Origin: Myxococcales bacterium
Lineage (GTDB): Bacteria > Myxococcota_A > Polyangia > Polyangiales > Polyangiaceae
DNA length: 39,528 nucleotides
Direction of reading: 5' to 3'
Assembly (NCBI GenBank): GCA_947473045.1
Contig: CANJCO010000049.1
Span: forward strand, 1-39,528
Shown here: positions 1-30,703 of the stretch, in pieces
Numbering within the stretch: position 1 is the stretch's first letter
How the letters are laid out: the number at the start of each line of letters is the position of its first letter
Program-made: the position numbers and the translations under genes
Notes under the pieces: generated by a model
What the model was told of the DNA's origin: nothing
What the model saw: the letters and a program-made list of their open reading frames with translations, nothing else
Databases searched by the model: none

Positions 1-126
1 CCCTGATAGTAATTGGCGAAGCCAATTGCGTGGGGTGGGGACCCCGAAAAACCGCGTTTTTCGGGGCGGGGAGGTGCATACCTCCCCGAGATGAAAGGCT
101 AGCAGGCCGTTCTTCAACGGCCTGCT
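1..126. repeat. Five-hairpin repeat, copy R1 (left end cut by window)
   Basis: Positions 1-126 match 6978-7103 (copy R3) at every base. The first hairpin is missing because the window begins inside it. Four hairpins remain: an AATTGGC/GCCAATT stem with a GAA loop, an 11-bp stem CCCCGAAAAAC/GTTTTTCGGGG, an 8-bp stem GGGGAGGT/ACCTCCCC, and a 9-bp stem AGCAGGCCG/CGGCCTGCT. The right end supplies two of the three bases of the stop codon of the minus-strand YdeI-like gene (125-703). The repeat therefore sits exactly at that gene's 3' end and could act as its terminator or have replaced its natural end. Identity to R3 over 126 bp, about 7 kb away, implies recent duplication or gene conversion. Confidence 0.9.
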
Positions 127-2825: not shown

Positions 2826-2850
2826 GCAGGCCGCTGCTTCAACGGCCTGC
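2826..2850. repeat. Solo copy of the terminal hairpin of the five-hairpin repeat
   Basis: An 8-bp perfect stem, GCAGGCCG (2826-2833) and CGGCCTGC (2843-2850), with a 9-nt loop CTGCTTCAA. The stem matches the last hairpin of R1 and R3, and the loop matches that of R2. It lies 16 bp after the stop of the beta-helix lipoprotein gene and 12 bp before the next ATG. It may act as a terminator or processing hairpin, but no T-tract follows it. Confidence 0.8.
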
Positions 2851-3855: not shown

Positions 3856-5547
3856 TTGAGAGACCTGTCGCCTTCGCCCGTGCCTCTGCAGTCGGATTCC
3901 GACGACGACGAGGCGAGCGTGACGTTTTGGGTCGGCGAAGGCGAGACGCTGCGCGAGATGCTCCCGGAGGCGCTCCTCCACGCGTTCGAGGAAGGCGAAG
4001 TCGCGGGCGACGTGCCCGTGCGCATTCAGCGCGAAGCGCCCCCGCGGCCGCTCGCGCGCTACATCTCCGAGCTCGTGTGGATGACGCATCGGCGGCGATC
4101 GAAGCTTCGAACGCGCGACCGCGTCGACTCGCTGTTTGAGACTGCCTTCGAGCGCGCGCCCATCGGCATGGTGCTGTCCGATCTCGTAGGGCGCATCCGG
4201 CACGCGAACGCCGCGTTCTGCGCGATGGTGGGCTACGGCCACGACGAGCTGTGCGAGATGCGGGTCGGCCAGTTGAGCGACGCCCGCGATCGCGAGCTCG
4301 AGATCACCCTGGGCAATGAGCTGCTCGGCGGCCATCGCGACAGCTTTCAGATCGAGAAGCGCTTTCGGGCCAGGAGCGGCGCGCAGCTCGACGCGCTCAC
4401 GTCGATCGCCCTCGTGCGGCTCGATGACGGCGCTCCGGGGTGGGTGATCGCCCACGTGCTCGACCTCACGCCGCTGCGGAGCCTTCAGTCGAACGTCGAA
4501 ATCGGGGCGCAGCGACTGCGGGAGAGCGAGGCGCGCTTTGCGCAGCTGTTTCGGCTGGCGCCGCAGGCGACGCTCATCGTCGACGGGGAGGGTCGGGTGG
4601 CGCAGTCGAACCTCAAGGCGCAGGCGCTGTTCGGCTACGAGGAGCTCGAGTTCACAGGGGTGCCGCTCGCAGCGCTCGTACGCGCCGCGGCCGACGACGC
4701 GCCCGACGCGCCCGCTGCCGCGGGTCGCTTCGATGACGACGGCCTGCAGGGTCAGCGTGTCCGGCGAGGGCAGCGGCGTGATGGAACGCCGTTCGACGTG
4801 GAGGTTTACCGCGTCGAGCTGGGCGCGGCGGGCGACACGCAGCTTCTCGTCGGGCTGGTCGACGTGACCGAGCGCCTCGCGGCGCAGCGTGCCATGGCGC
4901 GCTCGCTCGACGAAAAAGCGATGCTGCTCAAGGAGATTCACCACCGGGTGAAGAACAACCTGCAGATCATCTCGAGCCTGCTCGCCTTGCAGAGCCAGCA
5001 GCTCGACTCCGAGTTCGCGCGCGCGCAGCTTCACGCCACGGTGCACCGCGTGCGCACGATGGCGCTGATTCACGAGCAGTTTTATGGTGACGACTCGCTG
5101 GCGCGCATCGAGCTCAAGCAATACGTCACGATGCTCGGGCGCTACCTCTGCGCGGCGCTCGCGCAGTCGCTCCGGCTGCACGTCACAGGGCCCGCGATCG
5201 ACGTCGACGTCGATCAGGCCGTGCCGCTCGGGCTGATTCTCAACGAGCTCATCACCAACGCGATCAAGTACGGACAGTCCGCGTCGCGGGGCCGAACCGG
5301 GACCGACTGCGACGTGCTCATCGAGCTCGCCATCGAGCACGGCAATCTTCGCATCGCGGTCACCGACTGCGGCGACGGCCCTCCGCCGAACTACCAGTCC
5401 GGTGGCTCGACGACGCTCGGCTTCCAGCTCATTCGCGCGCTCAGTCGGCAGCTCCGCGCGAAGATCACAGTTGATGGCGGAGCCGGCGGTGGCGGTACGC
5501 GCGTCGAGCTGGTCTGCCCGCTTCAAGACGCGCAAGCGACGCGGTAG
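3856..5547 (+). CDS. PAS-PAS-HisKA_2 sensor histidine kinase (soluble)
   Basis: About 563 aa with no membrane segment, so likely a cytosolic sensor. Two PAS domains are visible: about residues 93-210 (LFETAFERAPIGMVL, then a strand ending at DLTPLR) and about 220-340 (ESEARFAQLFRLAPQATLIV, ending LLVGLVDVTERL). The kinase core is the HisKA_2 type: the H-box KEIHHRVKNNLQI carries His362/His363, followed by the N-box LILNELITNAIKYG and a degenerate G-box near GDGPPP and LGFQLI. The start is uncertain. The longest frame opens with TTG at 3856 without a clear ribosome binding site, while GTG at 3919 and ATG at 3958 are in-frame alternatives. No response regulator lies beside it. Its kinase core closely resembles that of the membrane kinase at 28301-30703, so the two are probably paralogues. 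Confidence 0.88.
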   Translation: MRDLSPSPVPLQSDSDDDEASVTFWVGEGETLREMLPEALLHAFEEGEVAGDVPVRIQREAPPRPLARYISELVWMTHRRRSKLRTRDRVDSLFETAFERAPIGMVLSDLVGRIRHANAAFCAMVGYGHDELCEMRVGQLSDARDRELEITLGNELLGGHRDSFQIEKRFRARSGAQLDALTSIALVRLDDGAPGWVIAHVLDLTPLRSLQSNVEIGAQRLRESEARFAQLFRLAPQATLIVDGEGRVAQSNLKAQALFGYEELEFTGVPLAALVRAAADDAPDAPAAAGRFDDDGLQGQRVRRGQRRDGTPFDVEVYRVELGAAGDTQLLVGLVDVTERLAAQRAMARSLDEKAMLLKEIHHRVKNNLQIISSLLALQSQQLDSEFARAQLHATVHRVRTMALIHEQFYGDDSLARIELKQYVTMLGRYLCAALAQSLRLHVTGPAIDVDVDQAVPLGLILNELITNAIKYGQSASRGRTGTDCDVLIELAIEHGNLRIAVTDCGDGPPPNYQSGGSTTLGFQLIRALSRQLRAKITVDGGAGGGGTRVELVCPLQDAQATR

Positions 5548-6355: not shown

Positions 6356-6573
6356 GGGGATTGGTGCCGGGCGCGGAGAGGGGCTGGGAGGTCGCGGTCG
6401 ACGGTCGTGGCGACAGGGATGGGAAGCGTGGTTCCGCGCCGACGCAGTCCCGGCGCGTCGGAGCCGAGTGGGATACGTGCGAAATTCGGAGATCCGAATT
6501 TTGCTGCAGGCGGGGCGATCGTTCGAGGCCTGGTCGCCATCCTCGGCGCCGCCGCGCTTGCGAAGGCCACGCG
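6356..6573. other. Intergenic stretch before repeat R2, with a strong palindrome
   Basis: No supported gene. At 6482-6501 there is a 9-bp perfect inverted repeat AAATTCGGA/TCCGAATTT separated by only GA, unusually AT-rich for this genome. The tiny spacer suits a protein-binding dyad better than a terminator. A 64-codon ORF at 6407-6601 has a short hydrophobic stretch (VRGLVAILGAAALAKATR), but it runs into repeat R2 and was not called. Confidence 0.45.
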
Positions 6574-6721
6574 CTATCAGGGTGCTCTAAAAACACTCTG
6601 ATAGGAATTGGCGAAGCCACTTGGGTGGTGGGGACCCCGAAAAGCCGCGTTTTTCGGGGCGGGGAGGTGCATACCTCCCCGAGATGAAAGGCGAGCAGGC
6701 CGCTGCTTCAACGGCCCGCTC
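6574..6721. repeat. Five-hairpin repeat, copy R2 (diverged)
   Basis: A diverged full-length copy of the R1/R3 repeat. Hairpin 1 is CTATCAGGGTG (6574-6584) with CACTCTGATAG (6594-6604), 11 bp including one G-T pair. Hairpin 2 has one mismatch. Hairpin 3 keeps its stem because an A-to-G change becomes a G-T pair. Hairpin 4 (GGGGAGGT/ACCTCCCC) is unchanged. Hairpin 5 is GAGCAGGCCG (6693-6702) with CGGCCCGCTC (6712-6721), with one mismatch but extra outer pairs. Retaining all five hairpins despite substitutions suggests that RNA or single-stranded DNA structure matters. It lies upstream of the broken nuclease-like gene. Confidence 0.88.
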
Positions 6722-6862
6722 GGCGGTCGCGTCCGGCCCGGATCGGCGCCAGGCCTGTCCCAAAGACGGCCCCGCGCTGGCCCGGCCAGCCTCCCAACGC
6801 GCGATCTGCTTGAAATCAGCCCGATCGCCCGTGGCATGCGCCCTGCTCAGTCTGGGAGTGCC

Positions 6863-7910
6863 ATGCCGACTCTCGAACACGAGGCGCTCATCGACCTGAT
6901 CCGCAGCGATCCGTCGCTGCTTGGCATGCTGCTCGCGTCGCTCGGAGTCGAGATCCCTGGCAGGGTGTTGAAAAACACCCTGATAGTAATTGGCGAAGCC
7001 AATTGCGTGGGGTGGGGACCCCGAAAAACCGCGTTTTTCGGGGCGGGGAGGTGCATACCTCCCCGAGATGAAAGGCTAGCAGGCCGTTCTTCAACGGCCT
7101 GCTGGCGGCGCGGCCGAAGTCCGCGACGCTACGCTCACCGTGCCCGAGCTACGCGCCGATCTCGTGGTCGCCTTCGGTAATCAGGAGTCGCCGGACGTCG
7201 TGCTGATTGCCGAGATTCAGCTCCGCCAAGACGCGGATAAGCGCTATTCGATGCCGTTTTACGCGATGTCGGCGCGAAGTCGGTATCGATGCCCCGCCAT
7301 CGTGGTGGTGATTGCCATAGACGAAGCAGTGGCCGCGTGGGCGCGGCAGCCGGTGCAGCTCGACCCCTACAACGCTTGGCGACCGCTCGTGATCGGGCCG
7401 TCGCAGGTGCCTCGCGTGACCGATGTGGCCGAGGCGCGGGCCCGTCCGTACTTGGCGGTTTTGTCGGCGCGCATGCACGCCAAAGGGCACCAAGGGCTCG
7501 CCATCGCGCGCGCTGCGCTCGAGGTGTTGCCCACCCTGCCGGATGACCGTGACGTGGTATATCTTGACGTGATCTGGTCTGCTCTCGACGCCGCCGCGCG
7601 TCTTGCTCTGGAGGCTGAAGTGAACTTCGCGAACTACGTCCCGACCAACCCGTTTTACTATCAAGCGCTCGAAAAAGGCCTCGCACAGGGCCGCGAGGAG
7701 GGCCGCGAGGAGGGGCTCGAAAAGGGCCTCGAAGCGGGCCGCGGCGAAGGTGAGCGCGACGCTCTGCGGGTCATTCTGCGCACACGCGGCCTCACGCCGA
7801 CTGCCCACCACGAAGCGCGCATCGGCGCGTGCAACGACGTGGCGATCCTGCGCGAATGGGTAGCGCGCGCGGTCACCGTGGCCTCGGTCGACGACGTGCT
7901 CGCGGACTGA
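6863..7910 (+). pseudogene. PD-(D/E)XK-like family protein, interrupted by repeat R3
   Basis: The N-terminal piece starts at ATG 6863 (GGGAG lies 4 nt upstream) and reads MPTLEHEALIDLIR then LLASLGVEIPG. It then enters repeat R3 and leaves the frame. The C-terminal piece resumes in another frame after the repeat and is open from 7080, with a possible GTG at 7140, to 7910. It contains VPELRADLVVAF, the core VVLIAEIQLRQDADKR (Asp strand, Glu-x-Gln strand) and RYRCPAIVVVIAIDEAV. A charged GRxEGxEKGLExG repeat follows near 7675-7755, typical of the C-terminus of these Rpn/PD-(D/E)XK-like proteins. Removing about 142 bp (for example 6962-7103) would restore one frame of about 301 aa, a normal length for what I recall as a large myxobacterial family. 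The C-terminal piece keeps the putative nuclease core and could still be made from GTG 7140. Biochemical function is unknown. Confidence 0.78.
6961..7103. repeat. Five-hairpin repeat, copy R3 (complete, inside a gene)
   Basis: The only complete copy, about 143 bp. Hairpin 1: CAGGGTGTT (6961-6969)/AACACCCTG (6974-6982), loop GAAA. Hairpin 2: AATTGGC (6988-6994)/GCCAATT (6998-7004), loop GAA. Hairpin 3: CCCCGAAAAAC (7019-7029)/GTTTTTCGGGG (7033-7043), loop CGC. Hairpin 4: GGGGAGGT (7045-7052)/ACCTCCCC (7057-7064), loop GCAT. Hairpin 5: AGCAGGCCG (7078-7086)/CGGCCTGCT (7095-7103), loop TTCTTCAA. All stems are perfect. Positions 6978-7103 equal R1 positions 1-126 exactly. It encodes no transposase, so it must be moved by something in trans if it is mobile. 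No clear target-site duplication could be read. Confidence 0.92.
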
Positions 7911-28300: not shown

Positions 28301-30703
28301 GTGTTAGCCTCGGCAGCAGTGAATGAGATCGTCCTGCCCCGCGAGGCGCCGCGAGAGTTGCTGGCCGGGTCGGGCGATCCGTTGCCCGCGACGCTTGCCG
28401 CGCGCGTAACGTTCGTAATCGCGCTGGCGCTCACCAGCCTCGTCGCGGCGCTCGGCGTCGTGCAGCCCGTCTCGCTCCTGTGGCTGTACGGGTCGCTCGT
28501 TGTCGTAGCGGGCGTGGTGTCGTTCGCGCCCGGGATCCCGGAGCGCGCGCGCGCGGCCTGCGTCACGACCTCCTGGCTGCTCGCCGGCCTGGGCACGCTC
28601 TGGAGCGACGGGCTCAGCGGGGGCCTCGCGATTCTCGTGGTGGCGGTCGCTTTGATCGGACTGCTGCACACCCGCGCGGTAGCGGTCGCGGCGGCGATCG
28701 TGAGCACTGCGGCGATGGTCGTCGCCGGCATCCCCCGCGTCGCAAGCCGCGAGGACGCCGCGCGACTCGCCGCGCACGCCGGAACGTTCTTCGGCATCTC
28801 GGTGATGACTACGCTGGTGCAGTCCGCCGTTGTGCGCAAAGCCAATCTGGCCACGGAGCGCGCGCGCAACCTCGCGATCGCGGTCGAGTGCACCGAGAGC
28901 AGCGTGATCATGTCGGGCGTCGACGGCCGCATTACGTGGGTCAACGAGGCTTTCTCCCGCCTCACCGGGTTCGCGCGCGTCGACGCAGTCGGGCGCAAGC
29001 CATCCGAGCTGCTTCAGGGGCCCGCGACCTCGCCCGCGTCGCGCGCCTACATGCGCGATCGCCTGCGGAGCGGCGAGCCCTTTGCGTGCGAAGTCATCAA
29101 CTACACCAAGTCACGAGAGCCCTATTTTACCGCGATTGAGCTTCAACCGCTCCGCGACGACGCAGGCGTTCTGCGCGGCTTTACGGCGCTGCAGACCGAC
29201 GTCACCCTGGCCCGCATGCGATCGGAGCTCGACACGGTCGATCGCGAGCTGACGACGGCGCTGGCCGCTGCCCGCACTGCCGATGATGGTCTTCGGGCCC
29301 TCGTTGAAAAGTTGGTCGAGGCGCCCCCCGTGCTCGTCGCCAGAGCCTGGCGGGTTTTCGACGGCAACACGACGCTCGTCGCCAGCGCGCGCACGCGCTC
29401 GTCGCACGTCTCGCCCGAGGCGATCGACGAAGTTTTCGCGGGTTCGAGTCCTCCGGCCGTGCAACGTGGCTCGAGCGTGACCTTCGAGAGTCGTAGGTCG
29501 GCCGGGTTCGCCCACTCGGTGCTTCGCCGCGGCCTCGCCGGCGATCGGCCCTGGGTCATCGAGGTGTGCGTCGCCGACGAAGTTCCGGGGCGCGCCGAGC
29601 TCGCTGAGCGGCTGCCGCGGCTGATGGCGACGCTGTCGCAGTTTCTTCGAAGGCTCGATGAAAACGAGCGCTTCGAAGCGATCTTCGAGCATTCGCCGGA
29701 TGCCCTCATCGTGGTCGACGACGCGGGGCGCGTGCAGCAGCGCAACGCCGTTGCTGCGTCGTACTTTCGTGAACTGGCGCCCGGCTCCGAGGCGGCCTCC
29801 GTTGTGCACCAGCTCGCCGCGCCCCTTGGCAGCCTGCGCGCGGCCGATGTACATCGCGTCGCCGGTGCGGCGACGAACGCTTCGTGGCGCATCGGAGCCG
29901 AGAGCGCCGCTTCAATCGAGGTCGAGGCCACGTTCGCTCCCATCCCGCTGGCTGCAGGTCAGGGCGTGCTGGTCGCGGTGCGCGACGTCACCGCTCGCCG
30001 CCAGGCCGAGCACGCGCTCGAAGCCGCGCTTGTCGCCGCTTCGCGTGCGCTGGCCGAGCGCGAGGTGCTGCTCAAAGAGATTCACCACCGGGTCAAAAAC
30101 AACCTCCAGATCGTCGCGAGCCTGCTCGGGATGCAGGCCGACCGCTCCAGGACCGAGGAGGCGCAGTCGGTGCTCGTCGAGAGTGAACATCGCATCCGAT
30201 CGATGGCGCTGATTCACAGCATGCTCTACGGCGGCAGTGATCTCGCGCACGTCGATATCGCCGAGTACGCCACCGCGCTCGCCAGCGAGCTGCGCAGCGC
30301 GCTCGACACGGGCGCCGAGCTGTCGTTTTCGGTCGAGAGCGTCGAGCTCAGCGTCGATCAGGCCATTCCGTGCGGCCTCATCTTGAACGAGCTGATCACC
30401 AACGCGCTCAAGCACGGTCGATCGGCAGACGGCCGTTGCCGACTGCGCGTCGAGGTCGGCCTTCGAGATCGCGCCCTGGTGCTCACGATTTCCGATTCCG
30501 GCCCAGGGTTGCCTGCCGACTACGACGCCCGCCGAAAAGGCTCCCTGGGCATGAAAATCATCGACGCTCTGGTGCGGCAGCTTGGCGCGACGATCTCGGT
30601 CGAGCGCACCGGCGGCGCGCGCTTCGTGCTGGCCATGCCCATCGCCGAGAGCGTATTGCCTCCGCTGGTGGCGCCCGTAGCGCGCACGGCCTCGGCCTCG
30701 TAG
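28301..30703 (+). CDS. Membrane-bound PAS/HisKA_2 sensor histidine kinase
   Basis: About 800 aa. The N-terminal 185 residues contain around six hydrophobic segments (for example FVIALALTSLVAALGVV, YGSLVVVAGVVSF and AAAIVSTAAMVVAGI), an integral-membrane sensor module of unknown ligand. PAS1 (about 190-310) carries VGRKPSELLQGP, LOV-like in layout but without the flavin-binding Cys. An unassigned alpha/beta region (about 330-440) follows, then PAS2 (about 450-570, IFEHSPDALIVVDDAG). The kinase core has H-box KEIHHRVKNNLQI with His595/His596, the N-box GLILNELITNALKHG, and SDSGPGLP. The start is GTG 28301 or the in-frame GTG 28319; neither has a good ribosome binding site. It probably signals to REC1 of the divergent EAL protein, an inference from position and from the known pairing of HisKA_2 kinases with that REC type. 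Confidence 0.88.
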   Translation: MLASAAVNEIVLPREAPRELLAGSGDPLPATLAARVTFVIALALTSLVAALGVVQPVSLLWLYGSLVVVAGVVSFAPGIPERARAACVTTSWLLAGLGTLWSDGLSGGLAILVVAVALIGLLHTRAVAVAAAIVSTAAMVVAGIPRVASREDAARLAAHAGTFFGISVMTTLVQSAVVRKANLATERARNLAIAVECTESSVIMSGVDGRITWVNEAFSRLTGFARVDAVGRKPSELLQGPATSPASRAYMRDRLRSGEPFACEVINYTKSREPYFTAIELQPLRDDAGVLRGFTALQTDVTLARMRSELDTVDRELTTALAAARTADDGLRALVEKLVEAPPVLVARAWRVFDGNTTLVASARTRSSHVSPEAIDEVFAGSSPPAVQRGSSVTFESRRSAGFAHSVLRRGLAGDRPWVIEVCVADEVPGRAELAERLPRLMATLSQFLRRLDENERFEAIFEHSPDALIVVDDAGRVQQRNAVAASYFRELAPGSEAASVVHQLAAPLGSLRAADVHRVAGAATNASWRIGAESAASIEVEATFAPIPLAAGQGVLVAVRDVTARRQAEHALEAALVAASRALAEREVLLKEIHHRVKNNLQIVASLLGMQADRSRTEEAQSVLVESEHRIRSMALIHSMLYGGSDLAHVDIAEYATALASELRSALDTGAELSFSVESVELSVDQAIPCGLILNELITNALKHGRSADGRCRLRVEVGLRDRALVLTISDSGPGLPADYDARRKGSLGMKIIDALVRQLGATISVERTGGARFVLAMPIAESVLPPLVAPVARTASAS

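Follow-up and report, generated by a model that had tools for sequence, protein, structure and literature searches.

Which kind of element is the hairpin-rich repeat that recurs within this stretch of DNA, how does it move, and what might its folded interior do? The window, by which we mean the whole stretch of 39,528 nt that was analysed, is contig 49 of a 5.15-Mb draft genome (G000) in 138 contigs; for the searches in other genomes the class was taken as Polyangia and the family as Polyangiaceae. The first-pass annotation had described a 143-bp unit of five consecutive hairpins at 6961-7103 (R3), with two further long copies (R1 and R2), and had regarded it as a fixed ordered array unlike simple REP pairs.

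Boundaries and folding of the repeat

The features of the repeat and of its surroundings, all on the plus strand, are as follows.

6863-7910, plus strand: gene of a multi-copy protein family into which R3 is inserted, from comparison with paralogs
6957-6960, plus strand: target duplication CTGG, 4 bp, left copy
6961-7101, plus strand: R3, complete 141-bp MITE-like element, bounded by the flanking CTGG repeat and by uninterrupted paralogs
6961-6982, plus strand: hairpin 1 (CAGGGTGTTGAAAAACACCCTG), the left terminal inverted repeat folded on itself; 9 bp, loop of 4
6988-7004, plus strand: hairpin 2, core, with a C-GAA-G triloop; 7 bp, loop of 3
7005-7018, plus strand: unpaired conserved stretch GCGTGGGGTGGGGA, from alignments A3 and A4
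7019-7043, plus strand: hairpin 3, core; 11 bp, loop of 3
7045-7064, plus strand: hairpin 4, core (GGGGAGGTGCATACCTCCCC); 8 bp, loop of 4
7078-7103, plus strand: hairpin 5, the right terminal inverted repeat folded on itself; 9 bp, loop of 8
7102-7105, plus strand: target duplication CTGG, 4 bp, right copy
1-124, plus strand: R1, copy cut off where the contig begins; CTAA (125-128) on its right
6578-6718, plus strand: R2, diverged copy; flanks CTAT (6574-6577) and CTCG (6719-6722)
2827-2849, plus strand: solo terminal hairpin (CAGGCCGCTGCTTCAACGGCCTG); right flank CTAG

The five back-to-back stems of R3 have the lengths and loops first given for them. The extent of the unit is corrected from 6961-7103 to 6961-7101, as the CTGG at 6957-6960 recurs at 7102-7105, and hairpin 5 takes in two nucleotides of this right target word. 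Taken together with 20 nt of flank at either end, R3 is predicted to fold as RNA at -103.2 kcal/mol, against -69.2 ± 4.0 kcal/mol for dinucleotide shuffles (z -8.5), and against shuffles of the same kind its fold as single-stranded DNA has z values of -10.8 and -11.8 on the two strands. The hairpin folding of R3 is far beyond chance. The left end of the element, CAGGGTGTTGAAAAAC, agrees with the reversed right end, CAGGCCGTTGAAGAAC, in 13 of 16 bases, and the two form the imperfect terminal inverted repeats of a MITE-like element. Hairpin 1 is the left of these repeats and hairpin 5 the right, folded back on themselves.

The identity of R1 (1-126) with R3 over 126 nt, as originally noted, was confirmed; its right flank CTAA holds the stop codon of a minus-strand ORF at 125-703. 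R2 keeps all five hairpins, as had been claimed, but not solely through wobbles and outer pairs: besides one wobble each in hairpins 1 and 3, there is one T.C mispair in hairpin 2 and one A.C mispair in hairpin 5. The right terminal hairpin is also found alone, as a 23-bp palindrome adjoining YTAR-like words, at 2827-2849 and elsewhere in the genome, where 64 matches to the terminal-hairpin pattern comprise solo and element-borne copies together. Elsewhere in the window, at 4898-5282 and 30042-30426, two pairs of stretches are 76-80% identical, in frames that look like putative sensor histidine kinases.

Insertion of R3 into a multi-copy gene

When the element and one CTGG are removed from 6863-7910, an open frame of 300 residues results. 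Its protein has 14 matches in its own genome, some of them pieces of one gene, and the family has matches in 40 of the 60 family genomes searched. All five own-genome paralogs that were read lack an insert at the R3 site: the flanks abut exactly in three, one extra base stands between them in another, and in the fifth the right segment was too diverged for the matching cut-off. The best paralog (C41) is 83% identical over residues 1-300. The insertion of R3 destroys its host gene. R3 is therefore a short, non-autonomous mobile element of MITE-like kind, with terminal inverted repeats, a target duplication, many copies and no transposase gene. Near the C-terminus of the interrupted gene, at 7667-7750 of the window, short in-frame repeats (GREEG/GLEKG-like) were also seen.

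A related IS5-family insertion sequence and the flanking words

Two DDE_Tnp_1 matches were found in the genome. The transposase on C83 belongs to the IS5 family by NCBIfam model NF033581 (273 bits, cut-off 140), and its insertion sequence (IS) spans 1,339 bp between CTAA and CTAA. The ends of this IS, CAGGACGTTGAGAAAC and CAGGGTGTTGAAATTC (right end reversed), have 11-14 of 16 bases as in the MITE ends, similar and not identical, and it thus provides an autonomous relative of the kind expected for a MITE; the hairpin core was sought in it and is absent. The second match is of the IS701 family (NF033540) and lies in the CTAG flank of a MITE copy. The IS701-family IS, at about 144-1540 of locus L094 (G000:C54:1-4000), has CTAG on both sides, the same kind of target as the MITE.

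Target duplications of the YTAR type have been published for IS5 elements (PMC10359306). The commonest flanks of the copies in the window's own genome are CTAG, TTAG and CTAA, with CTGG, CCAG, CTAT and others also present. Among the 29 own copies with both flanks, 12 have the same 4-mer on either side, where 4.9 would be expected (permutation p 0.0007); with the addition of two rows whose boundaries are less secure or whose core is a variant, the figure is 12 of 31 against 5.1 expected (p 0.001). The majority of own copies, 17 of 29 (19 of 31), have unequal flanking 4-mers; misassembly of the draft across identical repeats could hide some duplications.

IS5-type mobilisation appears to be the best explanation for the element of this genome. 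An IS5-family transposase, for example that of C83, would recognise ends of the form CAGG..GTTGAA and would insert the element at YTAR-like sites. Nine other genomes have 36 DDE_Tnp_1 matches; in the 30 of them that were inspected, no IS bearing the ends of the local element was recognised, and the loci gave just scattered end matches with 2-3 mismatches. Nor was a target duplication found in 15 copies of genome G014, or in seven copies of G059, G053 and G057, and a different mechanism may operate there.

A three-hairpin core conserved across Polyangia

Searches with covariance models, proposed when the repeat was first described, were made in its own genome and in relatives, and they revealed a repeat family with the order of hairpins kept and with compensatory changes. 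The idea of a fixed ordered array of five did not hold: the outer hairpins vary between genera, and hairpins 2-4 alone form the conserved core. With a model of the whole element, 20 of the 108 genomes of the family proved to hold relatives, and a model of the core (model R2, 91 positions) matched in 31 of 317 class genomes and 19 of 151 genera, the own genome being included in both counts; the E-values of the core model are rough and its weakest matches doubtful. Six of the 31 genomes lie outside the family. The structure that RNAalifold gave for the first covariance model mispairs hairpin 3 and was replaced in model R2 by an assigned structure.

The core, of about 90 nt, is conserved across the class in structure and partly in sequence. 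It is found between outer hairpins of the CAGGCTGCTGAA or CAGGCTGATGAA type in G054, G035 and G048, of the form CTGAAGGTCTGTC...CAGCTCTTGAG in G014, with similar ones in G021, G022 and G091, and of the CTARATGGGCCGAGC type in G059, G053 and G057. Still other types occur in further genomes, a copy from another family (G133) has the core between CTAGCAGG-type ends, and the cores of some relatives have no recognisable outer hairpins.

Across 57 distinct rows, taken from an alignment fitted to the structure, 89.4% of the cells in core pairs pair, and 19 of the 24 pairs have changes on both sides (123 cells against 36.5 when shuffled; 0 of 500). An alignment made from sequence (A3) gave changes on both sides in 13 of 29 pairs, pseudoknot pairs counted (again 0 of 500), and these pair counts are conservative, as the G014-type rows of A3 and A4 lie one column off in hairpin 3. 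These comparisons show a conserved core with ends that change between genera. Such an element would be a case in which the interior fold of a mobile element is selectively kept across genera and its ends change.

The triloop of hairpin 2 reads C-GNA-G in 44 of the 57 rows, a loop that is exceptionally stable in DNA. Because G.U and A.C intermediates are about equally frequent in the core pairs (12 versus 11, no preference), these data favour neither strand, and neither RNA nor DNA, as the object of selection. A pseudoknot between the loop of hairpin 3 (CCRCG) and an upstream CGTGG is at most a suggestion: 91.4% of cells can pair, yet just a single pair, in two cells, has changes on both sides. 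A leader or start-codon reading, in which the GATGA after hairpin 4 would open a conserved frame, was rejected: the frames differ between genomes, and among the 56 printed many are shorter than 25 codons, with no common C-terminal part in the longer ones.

Placement on stop codons

In G014, the left end of the element was found 48 times, and the 30 loci with the fewest mismatches were read. In 25 of these 30, the start of the element coincides exactly with an in-frame TGA closing a coding frame, compared with 49 of 1,343 control TGA sites in the same loci (Fisher p 3e-29), a coding frame being defined as at least 70 open codons with GC3 minus GC2 above 0.2. The copies on stop codons lie in sense orientation relative to the upstream gene, and no right end falls on a coding stop in 16 copies. 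An exact word shows the core in 25 of the 30 loci; in the other five, the core model R2 matches L262, L263 and L270 strongly, L274 weakly and L272 not at all. The stop of a convergent gene lies within 60 nt of the right end in 17 of the 30 (a count made without a control). In an overlapping G014 set of 16 copies, the core follows a coding stop at a distance of 47 or 48 nt in 15.

The same tendency is seen in the window's own genome. There the target triplet closes a coding frame in 36 of 109 flanks, made up of 20 of 55 left flanks and 16 of 54 right flanks, whereas background YTAR sites do so in 31 of 305 cases (p 2e-7). Within the window, R1 sits on a stop (that of the ORF at 125-703), and R2 and R3 do not. 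A coding stop at constant distance was found in three of six copies of G091 (58 nt), four of seven of G059 (49-51 nt) and three of six of G021 (47 nt), on the right side in three of eight of G053 (53-56 nt), and in none of four of G055; outside G014 this survey is mixed, and it missed its anchor in 24 of 75 copies.

REP elements are described as lying close to stop codons and between convergent genes, with termini that often provide a TAG (PMC3733652), and their nearness to stop codons appears also in PMC12306157. Placement at stop codons is thus already known from other repeats; how exact it is in G014 is striking. By rough reckoning, selection against insertion within genes would not by itself yield 25 of 30. 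The element would represent a case in which genes are spared because copies settle on their stop codons.

Possible roles of the element at gene ends

The explanation that we consider probable as a whole is that of a MITE-like element, moved by IS5-type transposition, with a conserved core and a role at transcript ends where genes end. The hairpin array would act as a two-way transcript-end structure, through termination or protection of 3′ ends, and a copy placed on a stop codon would leave the protein intact and so be retained. We favour a transcript-end role of this kind, by which copies at gene ends would become tolerable. There is no T-run after the stems and no terminator-like site in R3, which leaves intrinsic termination unsupported; R2 has one terminator-like site, on the minus strand, a number at chance level. 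More tentatively, and with less than even likelihood, the structured Polyangia module could be cargo carried between different transposon ends and set down precisely on stops, in G014 in the sense of the gene, as a ready-made 3′ end: a mobile cassette with a conserved fold that makes its own insertions tolerable, possibly acting as single-stranded DNA or RNA.

It seems rather unlikely that the core is instead a host-domesticated regulatory element, whether a terminator, a protector of mRNA 3′ ends or a protein-binding site, which transposition spreads only occasionally and which host selection has placed at stop codons. Conservation across 19 genera and the near-constant spacing of 47 or 48 nt from stop to core in 15 of 16 G014 copies would agree with such an element, as would the upstream genes: the 16 frames have no mutual similarity, and the two proteins tested, Der and pirin, reach the natural C-terminus of solved relatives. 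However, abundance is very uneven (hairpin 4 has 158 matches in the own genome, and G014 has 48 left ends), 286 of the 317 class genomes have no match to the core model, many of the own-genome matches show full identity over 143 nt, which indicates recent spread, and R3 destroys a gene.

Comparison with known repeat families

REP and BIME elements are defined by a 20-40 bp palindrome with a GTAG or CGTC tag (PMC3733652). Like the element described here, the REP, BIME and REPIN repeats of the GTAG and CGTC families are many-copy hairpins near stop codons and between convergent genes (PMC3733652, PMC12306157). Unlike them, ours has 141 bp, five hairpins, CAGG ends, YTAR-like flanks and, at R3, a target duplication; it carries no GTAG tag, and no RAYT was found in the draft assembly. 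The original distinction from simple REP pairs therefore stands.

That the element is nonetheless REP- or REPIN-like and travels in single-stranded DNA form through the action in trans of a Y1 (HUH) transposase, which would recognise the hairpins in single strands and cleave at the flanking tetranucleotide, we regard as improbable. The hairpins at both ends, each beside a tetranucleotide, have the expected form, REPs too lie between convergent genes with termini that often give TAG stops (PMC3733652), the 15 G014 copies yielded no duplication, and both the C-GNA-G loop in 44 of 57 rows and the DNA fold (z -10.8) would suit a single-stranded DNA substrate. Against this, PF01797 has no match in G000, whereas five of 14 control genomes match, an absence weakened by the ease with which draft assemblies lose repeated genes; R3 has an identical 4-bp word on both sides and its paralogs are clean; and an IS5 element with similar ends is present.

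The likeness to IS5-family MITEs, which underlies the explanation that we prefer, lies in the short length, the lack of genes, the terminal inverted repeats, the flanks, the commonest of which are of YTAR type, and the related IS in the genome. The difference is that here the interior is a three-hairpin core common to elements with other ends, and that both ends form hairpins of their own. Neutral interiors are common in MITEs, and hairpin 3 has a broken base in 8 of 16 aligned own copies (ACCGGCGAAAAACC), but it is very improbable that the hairpins are an accident of palindromic IS ends and filler around a functionless core, given the compensatory changes and conserved unpaired stretches among elements whose ends differ, and the matches to the core in 19 genera.

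Among other short repeats, bcr1 of the Bacillus cereus group is listed as a repeat of about 150 bp with conserved folding in PMC2267715, which also cites a paper whose title terms it mobile. It belongs to another phylum, and a single core with different ends does not figure in the description by which alone we compared the two. BOX, RUP and SPRITE of pneumococcus are likewise short mobile repeats, a resemblance at the level of description. The transcripts of MITEs form stable stem-loops (PMC10969869).

The first-pass annotation had not recognised the repeat as a described element, and Rfam gave no match at gathering level in the window. In E-value scans of 6500-7300 and of the loci of six relatives, the best E was 0.45, far under the gathering scores, and no Rfam mobile-element RNA, HEARO included, gave a match at gathering level. 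A literature search, with most subscription journals outside its reach, found no described myxobacterial repeat of this kind, and the same holds for the accessible text of two myxobacterial genome papers. The element adds a repeat class to look for in Polyangia genomes.

Copy number and spread

Copies are not confined to this locus. The 20-mer of hairpin 4, at up to three mismatches, has 158 matches in the own genome (0 for a reversed-pattern control), a count in which copies at contig ends may appear twice. At up to two mismatches, 10 of 108 family genomes match, the own genome with 154 matches and the others with one each. Of 186 candidates in the own genome, 40 were scored, which gave 40 matches identical to R3 over 143 nt. 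No fewer than 36 of them are located at contig ends, as judged by locus length for 29 among the first 30 and by position for the rest. The same real copy may therefore be counted at two contigs, and perhaps about half of the 40 are separate identical copies. A mobile repeat would account for the breaking of the draft assembly at these copies.

Distant blastn searches of plasmid and phage collections with R3 gave no match. A scan of named genomes with the element, which may omit the own genome, returned a single match, at a contig end of a Polyangiaceae MAG. In position this contig agrees with G095:C52 (L061), whose first bases already belong to an almost perfect copy of the element of the own genome, and which is probably a stray or mis-binned contig. 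At about 1040-1275 of locus L245, one truncated and one full copy stand head to tail with a solo hairpin, with CTGG at the joints, an arrangement that looks as if the element inserts beside itself.
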